Source: Oceanobacillus sojae (GTDB taxonomy: Bacteria; Bacillota; Bacilli; Bacillales; Amphibacillaceae). From it: a stretch of DNA of 64,000 nucleotides. The stretch lies in contig NZ_LT727812.1 in NCBI RefSeq assembly GCF_900162665.1, positions 979,632-1,043,631 of the forward strand. Reading direction: 5' to 3'. The notes under the pieces were generated by a model. The model saw only the letters and a list, made by a program, of their open reading frames with translations. It did not search any database and was not told the origin of the DNA. The position numbers and the translations under genes are program-made. Numbering within the stretch: position 1 is the stretch's first letter; each line of letters starts with the position of its first letter. Below are positions 54,985 to 60,719 of the stretch, in pieces.

Positions 54985-55018
54985 AGCCGCGCCTCTATAC
55001 ACCTATAGAAGCACGGCT
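54985..55018 (-). terminator. Terminator of the TRAP/CoA-transferase operon
   Basis: AGCCGTGCTTCTAT (minus, 55005-55018) pairs with ATAGAGGCGCGGCT (54985-54998), followed by a run of seven T's. Confidence 0.8.
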
Positions 55019-55050: not shown

Positions 55051-56325
55051 TTATTGCACATTCTCCACTAAATAGGTTGCTATTTGCGGGAAGAAGGATA
55101 AAAGCAGGATAAATAAAACCATGATCACAGCATAAGGGATGACCCCTTTAACAATTTCAGAAATGGTATTCCTTTTATCCAGTCCTTTTAAAACAAAGAG
55201 GTTTAACCCTACTGGCGGTGAAATTAATGCTAATTCCATATTGATTACCATAATAACCGCAAACCATATTGGATCGAAGCCAAGAGCAGTGATAATAGGG
55301 AATAAAATTGGTACGGTAATAACCAGAATAGAAATTGTCTCCAAGAACATTCCTAAAATAAGTAATACGATATTAATCAGAATAAAAATAACCCACGGCG
55401 ATACATCTAAGGAAATAGCTGTCTCCGTAATTGCTTGCGGAATTTGTAAAATCGTCAGGATAAATCCGAGTAACATCGCACCAATGATAATAAACAGAAT
55501 CATTGCATTTGTCTTCACAGTAGATAAGATAATCAGCTTTAAATTATCTACTGTCAGGTTGCGATACACCAGCAATGCAATCAGAAAGGCAAGAACTACC
55601 CCTATTGCCGCAGCTTCTGTCGGGGTAAATATCCCCGAATAAATTCCTCCGATAATTACAATCGGCAGCAGCAGCCCCCAAATTGCTTTTTTGGAAGCTT
55701 CCCATCTCTCTGTCCATGTAGCAGGTTCTTCTTTAATATGCCGCATTTGAATAGAAGAAAAAATCATAAAAATCAATGTCAATATAATTCCTGGTACAAC
55801 TCCGGCAATAAATAATTTACCTACAGATACACCGGTAAGCGATCCATATAAAATCATTGGTACACTTGGCGGAATAAGAATGCCTAAAGTTCCTCCAGCT
55901 GCTAACAGCCCAAGCACATACCTTTTTTTATATCCACGGCGAACCATTTCCGGAAGCGCGACAGCTCCGACTGTTACCGCTGTCGCAACACTGGATCCGG
56001 AGATTGCTGAGAAAATCGTACAACAGAAGATCGTTGCTATCGCTAAGCCTCCGGGAAAATGTCTGAACCATCTGCTTGCCATCTCATATAAATCTCTGCC
56101 GACCCCGCTGACAACGAGTATTTGGCTCATCAGTACATACATTGGTAAAGCTGTCAGGGTAAAGTCATCCAATGATTTATAGGCGATAATCGGAATTTGT
56201 GCAAAAGCAAAACTGCCGCCATTAAAGAAATACATCCCAAGTACAGCCAGCAGCCCTAAAGAAAAAGCTACGGGAAGACCAATAAGCAACAGTGTCGCTA
56301 AACCTCCTGCAAAGAATATATTCAT
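55051..56325 (-). CDS. dctM: TRAP transporter large permease (DctM)
   Basis: 424 residues with about twelve hydrophobic helices and the DctM pattern: ALPMYVLMSQILVVSGVGRD, CTIFSAISGSSVATAVTVGA and GGTLGILIPPSVPMILYGSL. It is the channel subunit of a sodium-driven TRAP system for organic acids. Overlaps dctQ by 4 bases (ATGA). Last gene in the operon. Confidence 0.94.
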   Translation of the reverse strand: MNIFFAGGLATLLLIGLPVAFSLGLLAVLGMYFFNGGSFAFAQIPIIAYKSLDDFTLTALPMYVLMSQILVVSGVGRDLYEMASRWFRHFPGGLAIATIFCCTIFSAISGSSVATAVTVGAVALPEMVRRGYKKRYVLGLLAAGGTLGILIPPSVPMILYGSLTGVSVGKLFIAGVVPGIILTLIFMIFSSIQMRHIKEEPATWTERWEASKKAIWGLLLPIVIIGGIYSGIFTPTEAAAIGVVLAFLIALLVYRNLTVDNLKLIILSTVKTNAMILFIIIGAMLLGFILTILQIPQAITETAISLDVSPWVIFILINIVLLILGMFLETISILVITVPILFPIITALGFDPIWFAVIMVINMELALISPPVGLNLFVLKGLDKRNTISEIVKGVIPYAVIMVLFILLLSFFPQIATYLVENVQ

Positions 56326-56819
56326 AGATGATCTCCCCCTTTATGTACGCCGCCATCTATCAGCTGTAATATAAATGCGATAACCAGCAAAACACCGCCT
56401 ATCGGAATGAAGCTTTCCGGTAAATACATCGGTATCCGCAATAAGGAGGTAGAAGTTACTCCTAATTCAAATGTTTTAAAAACGTGTATGAATCCGTACC
56501 ATGTAAGGATAATACTAAAAATCAAACCAAGTGCATTAGAGATATAAGCTAATACAATACGTGCCTTCTCATTCACTCGGTTAATGATTAAATCCACCGT
56601 GATATGCGAATACATTCTCACTGCATAAGCTGTTCCCAAAAAACAGCTCCCAATAATCGCATAGGTAGATAATTCTGTTGCCCATATGGTCGGCATACTG
56701 AAAAATGCTCTGGACATTACCTCATAGAATGTCATGATAGTCGTCATAAATATTAAAATACCGGACAAATAAGCAGCCCATTTAATCAGTAAATCAGAAA
56801 AATGATATAGTTTATTCAT
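56322..56819 (-). CDS. dctQ: TRAP transporter small permease (DctQ)
   Basis: 165 residues from ATG 56819 with AAGGAG 7 bases before; a longer reading starts in the upstream gap. Four hydrophobic helices, and family motifs MSRAFFSMPTIWATELSTYA and GTAYAVRMYSHITVDLI. It supports DctM. Middle gene of the transporter set. Confidence 0.9.
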   Translation of the reverse strand: MNKLYHFSDLLIKWAAYLSGILIFMTTIMTFYEVMSRAFFSMPTIWATELSTYAIIGSCFLGTAYAVRMYSHITVDLIINRVNEKARIVLAYISNALGLIFSIILTWYGFIHVFKTFELGVTSTSLLRIPMYLPESFIPIGGVLLVIAFILQLIDGGVHKGGDHL

Positions 56820-56850
56820 GATATAACTCCTTTCTAAATATTGAGCAGCT

Positions 56851-57882
56851 TTATTTGCCATCTACCATATCTAATAATTCTTCGCCAACAGCTCCAGCTT
56901 CGTTCCTGAAACTCTCCCAGACCGGCATTGCGGCTTCCTTCCAGACAGGAATATCTTCTTCTGGTACTTCGTATACTTCCATGCCTCTGTCCTTCAGCTC
57001 CTGTAACGTTCTCTCATCTTCCAGCTTTGTCTGATGACGAATCCATTCTTCTGTTTCGCTGGCAGTGTCCTCGATTAATTGTTGTGTTTTTTCCGGTAAT
57101 CCATCCCAAAAATCTTTATTTACTCCAAGAATAAATTCAAAGTAAACATAATTATTCACTGTTAAATAATCGGTCACTTCATCATAATTACGCTGCACCA
57201 TTGCAGTCGTTCCAGATGTTGCACCATCAACCGTTTTTCTTTGCAGCCCCATATAAACTTCTCCGCCTCCCATAAATACAGGAGATGCGCCATAAGCTTG
57301 AATAAATTCAGAAGGAAGTGCTCCCACGCTGCGAATCTTCAGACCTTTAAAATCCTCCGGTGATTCCAATGGGCGCTTATTATTCGCAAATTGGCCAAAG
57401 CCATAGTCAGCAAACATAAGCACCTTCACTCCAACATCCTCCATCTCTGAGCGAAGTATGTCCCCCAGTTCACCATTCAACGCTTCCCCAGCTTCTTCAT
57501 ATGTCTCAAATGCATAAGGAACATCAAATATCCCCATAGACGGTACAGTAGAAGCCCAAATCGTGGATGAATTCATTCCCATTTCTACACCGCCTGTTAA
57601 AAGTGACTGGTTCATATCCTTATCTGTCAACAGCTGTCCATTCGCAAAAACCTGCATATCTATCTGCCCATCTGATTTCTCTTCTATTTTCCTGACAAAT
57701 TCTTCGACACCTTCTGAAATATGGTGACCTGCCGGTAAGTTATATGCTATTCGTATCGTTGCTGGTTCATACTCTGCCCCGCTCGCTTCTGTTTCTTTCG
57801 AAGCCTGATCGTTGTTGCTGCAGGCTGCTAAGAGGCTTCCCGCCATGAGCAGCAAAAAAGAAAGACGGAATAGTTTTTTCAT
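56851..57882 (-). CDS. dctP: TRAP substrate-binding lipoprotein (DctP)
   Basis: 343 residues. The signal ends LLLMAGSLLAACSN, with a lipobox cysteine near residue 21, as expected in a Gram-positive cell. DctP features: IRIAYNLPAGHHISEGVEEF, VGALPSEFIQAYGASPVFMG and VYMGLQRKTVDGATSGT; the Arg in the LKIRSVGALP segment normally binds the ligand carboxylate. It overlaps the lyase gene by 4 bases, linking transport and catabolism. Confidence 0.93.
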   Translation of the reverse strand: MKKLFRLSFLLLMAGSLLAACSNNDQASKETEASGAEYEPATIRIAYNLPAGHHISEGVEEFVRKIEEKSDGQIDMQVFANGQLLTDKDMNQSLLTGGVEMGMNSSTIWASTVPSMGIFDVPYAFETYEEAGEALNGELGDILRSEMEDVGVKVLMFADYGFGQFANNKRPLESPEDFKGLKIRSVGALPSEFIQAYGASPVFMGGGEVYMGLQRKTVDGATSGTTAMVQRNYDEVTDYLTVNNYVYFEFILGVNKDFWDGLPEKTQQLIEDTASETEEWIRHQTKLEDERTLQELKDRGMEVYEVPEEDIPVWKEAAMPVWESFRNEAGAVGEELLDMVDGK

Positions 57883-58790
57883 TCACTCATCTCCTTTATT
57901 GTGCGCTCTCTATCTAATTGACGTATTCTTCCCAACGGTGTTTTAGTAGAAATATTTGCTGCAAAATCTGCAGCCTCAAACAGCTTATTTACATTAACTC
58001 CTGTTTCAACTCCCATTCGTTCAAACAGATACACCAGATCTTCTGTTGCTAAATTCCCTGCTGAGCCCGGAGCAAATGGGCACCCGCCAATACCGCTGAC
58101 AGCTGTTTCGAAAATACGCACGCCTGCTAAATAAGCAGCATACGCATTCGCTATACCCAATCCTCTGGTATCATGAATATGAAAAGAAACCTTTGTGTCT
58201 CCGGCTGCATGTAATACTTTTTTGAATAAGCTGTCCACTTCATCCGGTGTTGCGATTCCAATTGTATCTGCAATTCCGATTCTGTCTGCTCCAGCCTGTA
58301 CAGCTTTTTCCACTAATTCAAGAACTTTTTCTTCCTTAACCTTGCCTTCATAGGGGCATCCAAAGCTGACTGCAATGGAAAAGCAGATTTTCATCCCTTT
58401 TGCTTTTACTTCTTTGATCACATCATTGAATATTTTGAAATTTCCATCAATGGTCATCCCCAAATTTTTATCACTGAATGTTTCCGTAGCCGAAGCTGCC
58501 CAATTTAGTTCTAATCCCTGAAAAGCGCTTGCACGCATAAACCCTCTCTGATTTGGGATTAATGCGGCTGCCTGCAATTTTTTATTATGACTGAGCTGCT
58601 TTAATACATCCTCAGCATCTGCCATCTGCGGAACTCTTTTAGGATGAACAAAAGAAGTTACCTCAATTTTTTCTAATCCTGCTTCTGTTAATTTGTCAAC
58701 AAGTTTTACTTTGTCTTCAGTTGCTATTAAATCTGGTTCAGTCTGTAATCCATCGCGGGGACTTACATCAATAATGGTCACTTGTGCCAT
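57879..58790 (-). CDS. Hydroxymethylglutaryl-CoA lyase-type enzyme
   Basis: 303 residues of the HMGL/DRE-TIM family: VSPRDGLQTEPDLI (catalytic Arg-Asp), the metal histidines in SFHIHDTRGLGIANAYAA, and the catalytic Cys in AVSGIGGCPFAPGSAGN, matching the HMG-CoA lyase signature. It cleaves HMG-CoA to acetoacetate and acetyl-CoA, or a close analogue. It overlaps the CoA-transferase by one base and dctP by 4. With the transferase it forms a two-step route from a 3-hydroxy-3-methyl dicarboxylate. Confidence 0.9.
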   Translation of the reverse strand: MAQVTIIDVSPRDGLQTEPDLIATEDKVKLVDKLTEAGLEKIEVTSFVHPKRVPQMADAEDVLKQLSHNKKLQAAALIPNQRGFMRASAFQGLELNWAASATETFSDKNLGMTIDGNFKIFNDVIKEVKAKGMKICFSIAVSFGCPYEGKVKEEKVLELVEKAVQAGADRIGIADTIGIATPDEVDSLFKKVLHAAGDTKVSFHIHDTRGLGIANAYAAYLAGVRIFETAVSGIGGCPFAPGSAGNLATEDLVYLFERMGVETGVNVNKLFEAADFAANISTKTPLGRIRQLDRERTIKEMSE

Positions 58791-59992
58791 CAGATAATTC
58801 CTCCCTCTTTTAACCTTTTAAAATCCTCATAGGAGAAGTCCAGAAACTCCTTATAGATTTCTTCGTTATGTTCACCTAATGCCGGTCCATTCGTTTCAAT
58901 TTTTCCCGGTGTTTCGGAAAGCTTGGGAACGATTCCCGGTGTTTTTACTATCTTGCCATCTTCCAGCTCAATTTCCTGTATCATATCCCGTGCACTATAA
59001 TGTGCATCATTAATAATATCCTTAATGCTGTAAATAGGACTGACCGGAACAGAGGCCTCGTCTAAGATTCGCTGTACTTCTTCAATCGGGTATTGCTTCG
59101 TCCAGGATTCAATGACGCTGTCAATATAATCAACATTATTTACTCTATCCTGATTCGTGGCATATTTTGAATCATTGGCCATATCTTCTTTTCCTATTGC
59201 TGTCATCAGCCGTTGGAAAATCCGGTCTCCATTTCCGCCAATAATGACATAAGAACCATCTGCACATAAGTATGAATTAGATGGTGCGACACCCGGCAGT
59301 GTACTTCCGGTTCTCTCACGGATCTCCCCTGTTAGATCAAACTCCGGAAGCATTCCTTCCAATAAACTAAATACAGATTCATAAAGGGCGACATCCACTT
59401 CCTGTCCTCTTTTTTCCTGATCGCGATCCCGTACCCGCAGCGCCATCAGTGTTCCAATCACTGCATATAAACCGGCTACCATGTCTCCAATAGCAATCCC
59501 GACACGAACTGGCGGCAGATCCGGATATCCCGTCAGGTATCTTAAACCTCCAACGGCCTCCGCAACACTGCCAAAACCGGCTTTTTCCCGGTAAGGACCT
59601 GTCTGCCCGTAACCGGATATTCTTGTTAATATCACCGATGGGTTTACTTTCTTTAAATCTTCATAACCCAATCCCCATCTTTCCAAAGTACCCGGCTTAA
59701 AATTTTCCAGAACAACATCTGCTTTTTTAGTCAGGTTTTTAATAATCTCCTGTCCTTCCGCCTCACGAAGGTTAACTGTGATTGATTTTTTATTACGTGA
59801 CTGGACATGCCACCAGACGGAGGTATCTTTATACATCACTCTCCAATTTCTAAGGGGATCTCCATTTGTAGGCTCTTCTACTTTGATAACCTCTGCTCCA
59901 AATTCAGAGAAAAGTTTTCCTGCAAAAGGAGCTGCTACAATATTTCCTAATTCTAATACTCTTATTCCTTCAAGAGGCTTTTTCGTCTCCAT
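58790..59992 (-). CDS. Class III CoA-transferase (CaiB/BaiF, SUGCT-like)
   Basis: 400 residues. Family motifs: GIRVLELGNIVAAPFAGKLF at the start, NKKSITVNLREAEGQEIIKN, LENFKPGTLERWGL, SGYGQTGPYREKAGF, and the catalytic Asp in VGIAIGDMVAGLYA (near 169). It moves CoA between acids by a glutamyl-like Asp anhydride. Relatives such as human SUGCT act on glutarate and 3-hydroxy-3-methylglutarate. Two bases separate it from the GntR gene. Confidence 0.9.
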   Translation of the reverse strand: METKKPLEGIRVLELGNIVAAPFAGKLFSEFGAEVIKVEEPTNGDPLRNWRVMYKDTSVWWHVQSRNKKSITVNLREAEGQEIIKNLTKKADVVLENFKPGTLERWGLGYEDLKKVNPSVILTRISGYGQTGPYREKAGFGSVAEAVGGLRYLTGYPDLPPVRVGIAIGDMVAGLYAVIGTLMALRVRDRDQEKRGQEVDVALYESVFSLLEGMLPEFDLTGEIRERTGSTLPGVAPSNSYLCADGSYVIIGGNGDRIFQRLMTAIGKEDMANDSKYATNQDRVNNVDYIDSVIESWTKQYPIEEVQRILDEASVPVSPIYSIKDIINDAHYSARDMIQEIELEDGKIVKTPGIVPKLSETPGKIETNGPALGEHNEEIYKEFLDFSYEDFKRLKEGGII

Positions 59993-59993
59993 C

Positions 59994-60638
59994 TTATCCC
60001 TCCGGCTCTTCTCTGTATAAATTCATAAAATGTGTGAAATCTCTTTCAATATGCTTTTTCATTAATTCTTTTGCGGCTTCCGCATTCTGTTCAGCAATAG
60101 CCTCCCATATTTGCTCATGGTCCACAAATGCCGTTTTCTTGTATTTCGGATCCTTATCTACAATAACCTCCCGATAAAAGCTGTTAACACCACGCAGTGT
60201 TCGAAGCATGGATATGAGAAAAGGATTCGCACTGGCTTCAATAATGATGTCATGAAAAGCTACAGTGACTCGTTTTTCATCTTGCTTTTCCTTATGAAGA
60301 ACTGTATTCTCCACTTCCTTTTTCATTAACAGCAACTGTTCATCCGTCCGCCTCAAAGCAGCATAATAAGCAGCAAGGGACTCCATCTCTATCCGGCACT
60401 CATATAGATATTGATAATCTGTAAGTGAAGGCTCCACTACTGTCACGCCGCCTGTTTTTGATAAATTCAGAAATCCTTCTTTCTCCAGCATTCTTATCGA
60501 TTCACGAATAGGGCTTCTGCTTACATTCAGCTCTTCTCCTATCTTTTCTTCAATCAATCTTTCTCCAGGTTTGAATTTTCCGATAATAATCTGCTCTCTT
60601 AAGTAATCATATACCTGACTCTTTAGTGTTTTTTTCAC
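59994..60638 (-). CDS. GntR/FadR-type (FCD) regulator of the TRAP operon
   Basis: About 215 residues from GTG 60638. The winged HTH (LKSQVYDYLREQIIIGKFKP, then EELNVSRSPIRESIRMLEKE) is followed by the all-helical FCD ligand domain with metal residues (AFHDIIIEASANPF, then FVDHEQIWEAI). The start is uncertain. GAGGTG at 60657-60662 is 18 bases before GTG 60638, but only 6 bases before an ATT at 60650. An ATG at 60692 lies inside the promoter -10 and cannot be used. The regulator probably represses its own operon. Confidence 0.85.
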   Translation of the reverse strand: MKKTLKSQVYDYLREQIIIGKFKPGERLIEEKIGEELNVSRSPIRESIRMLEKEGFLNLSKTGGVTVVEPSLTDYQYLYECRIEMESLAAYYAALRRTDEQLLLMKKEVENTVLHKEKQDEKRVTVAFHDIIIEASANPFLISMLRTLRGVNSFYREVIVDKDPKYKKTAFVDHEQIWEAIAEQNAEAAKELMKKHIERDFTHFMNLYREEPEG

Positions 60639-60663
60639 AATATTTACAATGACGATCACCTCT

Positions 60664-60678
60664 TGTATACAGTATACA
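60664..60678. promoter_or_regulatory. Operator of the GntR regulator (15-bp perfect palindrome)
   Basis: TGTATAC-A-GTATACA at 60664-60678 matches the TGTATACA-type half-sites of FCD GntR regulators. It begins about 12 bases downstream of the -10, overlapping the transcript start region, so binding would block the operon. Confidence 0.75.
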
Positions 60679-60690
60679 TTTGTATCGTTC

Positions 60691-60719
60691 ATAGTATTAC
60701 AACAAGGGCAAAAAGTCAA
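60691..60719 (-). promoter_or_regulatory. Promoter of the gntR-CoA-transferase-lyase-TRAP operon
   Basis: On the minus strand TTGACT (60714-60719), 17 bases, TACTAT (60691-60696). The expected start near 60684 is just upstream of the palindrome. Confidence 0.75.

Follow-up and report, generated by a model that had tools for sequence, protein, structure and literature searches.

What kind of acid would a bacterium consume with an operon that joins a TRAP transporter to a class III coenzyme A (CoA) transferase and a lyase of the HMGL family? The question is raised by six genes on the minus strand of a 64,000-nucleotide stretch of Oceanobacillus sojae DNA (contig NZ_LT727812.1, positions 979,632 to 1,043,631; hereafter the window), where they extend from about 60659 down to 55051, all intact and head to tail: an FCD regulator, the transferase, the lyase, and the TRAP components DctP, DctQ and DctM. 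The initial annotation had read them as a route for scavenging 3-hydroxy-3-methylglutarate (HMG), with citramalate-like acids as the main alternative. Reading the gene set, the control elements, conservation and an altered active site from the sequence, we infer the substrate and every reaction step. With somewhat less than even confidence, we propose that the operon serves the substrate-switched scavenging of a branched hydroxy-acid, most likely (R)-citramalate or a near 2-alkylmalate, which would be cleaved to acetyl-CoA and pyruvate or another 2-oxo acid.

The gene order was read in nine loci: the window, O. neutriphilus (L038), Oceanobacillus sp. CFH 90083 (L039), O. sojae (L040), O. oncorhynchi (L041), a metagenome-assembled genome from Bacilli (L042), the contig of which begins within the transferase gene so that the regulator lies off the contig, and L195, L196 and L214. 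Since the order recurs in eight loci other than the window, the gene set is more than a chance assembly, and the tight packing noted at the outset was borne out, most junctions being overlapping or 1 nt wide. Transferases at least 73% identical to that of the window occur in 9 of 159 genomes of the family, and relatives of DctP at an E-value of 1e-60 in 4 of 398 genomes of the phylum, its own genome counted; among the matches listed, lyases outside the operon group are at most 46% identical. Around the DctP relatives of 45-47% identity in L211-L213, no match to the transferase or the lyase was found within 16-17 kb. In two loci of the same genus (L197 and L198), a 70-71% identical transferase stands beside a very divergent lyase (38-39%, with Ala at position 167 of the human numbering); in L197 the pair is followed by a citrate:proton symporter. 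The view that no operon of this kind had been described in Bacilli agrees with our literature search, which retrieved none at the level of titles and abstract openings, mostly outside subscription journals.

Active site and kinship of the lyase

At the level of the family, the lyase resembles HMG-CoA lyase (Enzyme Commission number EC 4.1.3.4). It contains the HMGL-like domain, exceeds the cut-off of NF004283, the subfamily-level NCBIfam model of HMG-CoA lyase (Table 1), and finds its best solved-structure match in human HMGCL (234 bits); its own predicted structure has a predicted local distance difference test score (pLDDT) of 91.9. The metal ligands of the human enzyme, Asp42, His233, His235 and Asn275, are kept as D13, H204, H206 and N246, and Arg41, Glu72 and Cys266 as R12, E43 and C237. 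A review (PMC6941031) ranks Arg41, Glu72, Tyr167 and Cys266 as more critical than any other residues. The remaining one of these four, Tyr167, is replaced by Ser138 in the window lyase, and Ser also occupies this position in eight orthologues.

The reference set for this comparison comprised 23 leucine-type HMG-CoA lyases: 19 encoded next to a biotin-carboxylase gene, which was taken as the context of leucine degradation, human HMGCL, 2ftp of Pseudomonas aeruginosa, YngG of Bacillus subtilis, and L122, which is the other lyase of the window genome, a separate gene with the full leucine-type signature. Tyr167, Phe127, Ser169, Ser201, Gly203 and Tyr268 are invariant in all 23, and the window lyase has Ser138, Ala98, Ala140, Gly172, Ala174 and Phe239, respectively, in their place. 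Tyr167 is present in 19 of 19 lyases that adjoin a biotin-carboxylase gene, and absent from 79 of the 83 that have a related CoA-transferase within 7 kb (the window and L038-L042 counted); the four exceptions form one clade, and three of them are linked to PrpR and PEP-mutase genes. Among lyases with neither partner Tyr167 occurs once in 27 (L122), and none of 16 further lyases in a second tree has it. As a signature of genomic context, presence or absence of Tyr167 is strong. Position 167 of the transferase-linked lyases is variable, being A, C, G, I, M, N, S, T, V or Y. The combination of Asn125 and Ser167 is found in 20 of 149 rows, nine of them of the window operon type, four from loci of the same family that carry leuCD genes, and seven others. 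Judged by these residues, the window lyase departs from the standard type of HMG-CoA lyase.

In a 133-row lyase tree the leucine-type enzymes form one clade (Shimodaira-Hasegawa-like approximate likelihood ratio test, SH-aLRT, 95) separate from the window clade, and a bootstrapped tree of 69 rows gives the two groups 82/85 and 100/100, respectively, the deep forks being weak; the window lyase falls outside the leucine-type clade in both.

The transferase-lyase module and its partners

The transferase belongs to class III both by its family model and by Asp170, which aligns with the Asp column of 4ed9 and YfdE, a column that we take to hold the catalytic Asp of the family. Its earlier description as SUGCT-like holds insofar as human SUGCT is among the better solved matches (217 bits; the best, 4ed9, has 253 bits), but its best NCBIfam match, the succinate-glutarate model NF052585, gives 289.3 bits against a cut-off of 750.

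Of the 129 lyases that the first tree drew from loci, 83 have a related transferase no more than 7 kb away, a number in which the window and its close orthologues are counted; the share is no census, since the loci had been collected for their similarity to the window proteins. As far as gene neighborhoods tell, the transferase-lyase pair is a recurrent module. A hydantoinase-type HyuA gene accompanies 45 of the 83 within 7 kb, frequently together with HyuB and an amidase of the isochorismatase family (among L043-L136, e.g. L131 and L136), which suggests breakdown of cyclic imides feeding the module. LeuC is found within the same distance in 10 of 83, including Peribacillus, Geobacillus, Cupriavidus and Novosphingobium plasmids. 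Other partners are genes for PrpR and PEP mutase accompanied by tripartite tricarboxylate binding proteins, transporters of the TRAP, MFS and SSF kinds, tartrate dehydrogenase and, in a single case, a citrate:proton symporter.

The window's own family offers a closer comparison. Here 17 of the 58 listed transferase matches were examined, and 16 loci hold both transferase and lyase. In three of the 16 the TRAP genes are orthologous to those of the window, while a different set of TRAP genes lies close by in L202, L203, L205 and L210. In another four (L204, L206, L207 and L208) the order is FCD regulator, transferase, lyase, LeuC, LeuD. These four operons share with the window the families of the regulator, the transferase and the lyase, the latter also having Asn125 and Ser167 in common with the window lyase; they differ from it by LeuCD and a nearby symporter (of the SSF family, as tested in L206 only) instead of a TRAP importer. 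A second full-length LeuC is encoded elsewhere in each of the four genomes, as well as in genome G171, so the LeuC of the operon is an extra copy and presumably catabolic. The transferase tree is clearer than that of the lyase: the window transferase falls into a clade of 29 rows (SH-aLRT 100), eight of which have LeuC within 6.5 kb (Peribacillus, the four family genomes and Cupriavidus).

On two Peribacillus plasmids (L133 and L140), a transferase-LeuCD-lyase cluster adjoins genes for luciferase-like monooxygenases, flavin reductase and riboflavin kinase. This has the look of a pathway for ring cleavage that supplies the cluster.

Candidate acids for the operon

We propose the following scheme. 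The FCD protein would bind TGTATACTGTATACA, which directly follows the promoter, and prevent transcription for as long as neither the substrate nor its product releases it. DctPQM, to judge by its family, would bring in a branched 2-hydroxydicarboxylate, onto which the transferase would put CoA from succinyl-CoA or acetyl-CoA, and the lyase would split the resulting ester. (R)-Citramalate (2-methylmalate) would yield pyruvate along with acetyl-CoA, and the route would be complete without a hydratase, a ligase or any additional gene. The sequence of import, CoA transfer and cleavage that had been suggested at the outset is sound and fits the anatomy of the operon. The choice of acid leans on the relatives with LeuCD. 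These enzymes hydrate or isomerize 2-alkylmalates such as citramalate and isopropylmalate, and do not act on HMG; an acid that is both made by LeuCD and split by an HMGL-type lyase after CoA transfer would be a 2-alkylmalate, the simplest being (R)-citramalate. Together with the absence of Tyr167, this makes the citramalate-like acids, formerly the second choice, the better reading.

Several observations weigh against it. LeuCD is missing from the window operon, and the genome contains only one LeuC-sized gene, along with two larger genes of the aconitase family (905 residues, and 647 residues at L145:5714-7657), so that the argument from LeuCD applies by kinship only and the acid would need to arrive already hydroxylated. 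Most of the transferase-linked lyases, 73 of the 83, lack a LeuC gene in the surrounding 7 kb. The leucine-type rows all belong to a single clade, and hence the association of Tyr167 with context rests on few independent events. Approximately unbiased (AU) tests, for which the groups were named after the tree had been seen, are not decisive: a tree constrained to unite the window clade with the leucine-type lyases is worse by 16.9 log units (p 0.055, borderline), and one that unites it with the group containing the LeuCD-linked lyases of the family is worse by 6.5 (p 0.21), so the latter union is neither refuted nor established. Given the former value, the lyase data only lean away from kinship with HMG-CoA lyase and do not exclude it. 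Citramalate synthase presumably has Tyr in the pocket for the small substituent, so Ser could mean a bulkier substrate, with the alignment of the lyase pocket to that of LeuA being ambiguous in the key strand. Finally, the predicted structure of DctP is poor (pLDDT 46.1).

The suspicion of a bulkier substrate leads to acids such as 2-isopropylmalate, which would yield acetyl-CoA and 2-oxoisovalerate by a reversal of the LeuA reaction on the CoA ester. The small residue at position 167, which is Ser in the window lyase and in many relatives Thr or Asn, and Ala98 for Phe127 suggest a wider pocket, isopropylmalate synthase is presumably an enzyme with Ser in the matching pocket, and LeuCD is established to act on isopropylmalates. 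However, the correspondence with the LeuA pocket cannot be aligned with certainty, the breakdown of 2-isopropylmalate needs no LeuCD beside the lyase, and we know of no catabolic precedent; we consider this an unlikely substrate. A little more room should be left for some other hydroxy-acid, e.g. D-malate, 2,3-dimethylmalate or an acid of the citrate type, since the family is diverse, as the ten different residues at position 167 of the transferase-linked lyases indicate, and its partners include PEP-mutase-family genes, HyuAB with isochorismatase, tartrate dehydrogenase and the citrate:proton symporter; yet no single one of these acids has support of its own for the TRAP-linked clade, and we regard them, even taken together, as improbable.

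Import of free HMG, its conversion to HMG-CoA and cleavage to acetyl-CoA and acetoacetate is a minority reading, demoted but still live, which we consider quite unlikely. It draws on the NF004283 score, the human HMGCL match, the retained metal ligands and Arg, Glu and Cys residues, and the AU value of 0.055, by which the kinship is not clearly rejected; moreover, free HMG is reported from the metabolome of Acinetobacter baylyi (PMC4213383). Set against these is the change of all six residues common to the 23 leucine-type lyases, above all of Tyr167; as each genuine HMG-CoA lyase in the comparison has this Tyr, its absence here makes HMG the less likely substrate. In addition, L122 is a separate full-signature lyase in the same genome, and the LeuCD partners of the relatives do not fit HMG. 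A further objection was dropped. A CoA-transferase of the PF01144 family, which could handle acetoacetate, had no match in the window genome, the control being positive in 6 of 14 genomes, but an acetoacetyl-CoA synthetase was found there (819 bits, cut-off 521); the genome is thus probably able to activate acetoacetate, which favors HMG as far as it goes, and since the synthetase is present despite the lack of a PF01144 match we treat the disposal of acetoacetate as a neutral point.

The initial annotation had preferred HMG to itaconate or glutarate, and these do remain the poorer fits even though HMG itself lost ground through the replacement of Tyr167 and the LeuCD-linked kin. Degradation of itaconate, mesaconate or glutarate with the missing steps encoded elsewhere would accord with the succinate-glutarate model as the best NCBIfam match of the transferase, but the score of that match is far below the cut-off. 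The itaconate clusters of PMC12290011 contain a hydratase gene, and none was found among the six genes of the operon, to which that search was confined. Glutarate and itaconate were rejected on these two grounds, and we hold this whole group of substrates to be very improbable.

Returning to the (R)-citramalate reading, its closest counterpart by description is a pair of EC entries, succinyl-CoA:(R)-citramalate CoA-transferase (EC 2.8.3.20) and (R)-citramalyl-CoA lyase (EC 4.1.3.46), given in PMC8307300. The window operon likewise pairs a transferase with a lyase. In Chloroflexus, the source of the two enzymes, the lyase belongs to the HMGL family and the transferase to class III, and an HMGL-family lyase adjoining a class III CoA-transferase is what the window contains. 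The Chloroflexus pair has its role in autotrophic carbon metabolism and no importer devoted to it, in which the window operon differs. The itaconate pathway and Rv2498c employ lyases of the CitE type. As described in PMC12290011 (Ict-Ich-Ccl) and PMC6689899 (Rv2498c), they resemble our proposal in CoA transfer and in the cleavage of citramalyl-CoA to acetyl-CoA and pyruvate, but the isomer cleaved is (S)-citramalyl-CoA and the itaconate route needs a hydratase. Leucine-breakdown enzymes such as human HMGCL and YngG have the fold family and the catalytic and metal-binding residues in common with the window lyase, and differ from it in Tyr167, the five other invariant residues and the gene partners. 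In the beta-rhizobia Burkholderia phymatum and Cupriavidus taiwanensis, orthologous adjacent genes for an HMG-CoA-lyase-like and a CaiB/BaiF protein are, according to PMC5789663, induced by Mimosa root exudate, 7.9- and 9.0-fold in the former and about 2-fold in the latter. This pair, likened to that of the window by description, fits a plant-derived acid, although the acid is not named.

It is tempting, if about as tentative as the citramalate reading itself, to regard lyases without Tyr167 and their partner transferases as an unrecognized catabolic module for 2-substituted malates with interchangeable front ends: TRAP uptake as here, hydration or isomerization by a second LeuCD, or ring opening of cyclic imides through HyuAB together with an amidase of the isochorismatase family. 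If so, many genes annotated as "hydroxymethylglutaryl-CoA lyase" beside a CoA-transferase would be misnamed. Should the citramalate reading hold, some Bacilli would own a dedicated route for scavenging citramalate-type acids, which might come from plants, fermentations or other microbes, and a neighboring transferase combined with a residue other than Tyr at position 167 would serve as an easy rule for re-examining HMG-CoA lyases in databases.

Layout and control elements of the operon

All six proteins score above the Pfam cut-offs (Table 1); DctP, DctQ and DctM together make up a complete TRAP transporter. The lipoprotein signal of DctP was assigned by eye. The regulator and transferase genes are 1 nt apart, and stop and start overlap at the transferase/lyase, lyase/DctP and DctQ/DctM junctions. 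The sole looser junction, of about 30 nt, is between DctP and DctQ, provided that DctQ starts at the ATG at 56819, which lies behind the Shine-Dalgarno motif AAAGGAG and is more likely than 56861. Beyond the promoter and terminator signals, the operon is flanked upstream by a gene of the iron-containing alcohol dehydrogenase family and downstream by an adenine-deaminase-type amidohydrolase gene.

Table 1. Genes and putative control elements of the operon (window coordinates)
Feature	Coordinates	Strand	Evidence
FCD/GntR-family regulator	59994..60659	-	FCD 77.2 bits, GntR 59.8 bits; start 60659, 60650 or 60638
Class III (CaiB/BaiF) CoA-transferase	58790..59992	-	CoA_transf_3 403.9 bits
HMGL-family lyase	57879..58790	-	HMGL-like 176.9 bits; NF004283 329 bits, cut-off 246
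DctP, TRAP solute-binding lipoprotein	56851..57882	-	PF03480 256.2 bits; TIGR00787 185.6, cut-off 175.05
DctQ, TRAP small membrane subunit	56322..56819 (open reading frame open from 56861)	-	PF04290 108 bits
DctM, TRAP large membrane subunit	55051..56325	-	PF06808 373.3 bits; TIGR00786 400.2, cut-off 268.45
Promoter-like site TTGACT-17 nt-TACTAT	60691..60719	-	conserved in relatives
Palindromic operator-like site TGTATACTGTATACA	60664..60678	-	between promoter and ribosome-binding site
Intrinsic terminator 3' of DctM	54985..55018	-	15-pair stem, 4-nt loop, then TTTTTT

The -35 box of the promoter-like site is identical in the window and L038-L041, and the -10 box differs at the third base only. 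It is this conservation that supports the promoter, as the region holds 13 promoter-like sites against a shuffle mean of 17, i.e. no excess. The TTG at 60719 listed as the start of the regulator is the -35 box itself, and therefore one of the three downstream starts is more likely. The operator-like palindrome is unchanged in the window, L038, L039 and L040, carries a single base change in L041, and occurs without mismatch nowhere else in the 4.8 Mb genome; genome-wide, no second operator stood out above the control, the other places having 2 mismatches, with 6 matches per strand against 5 for the reversed pattern. The region contains 8 terminator-like sites, where shuffles average 3.7.

There is no ATG behind the ribosome-binding site of the regulator (60662-60636 in the window). 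The codon found there is ATT, ATC or ATA in the seven sequences compared (the window, L038-L041, L196 and L214; L195 gave no match), and in L196 no in-frame GTG occurs among the nine codons preceding the conserved protein start. An AUU-type start codon is possible for this gene.

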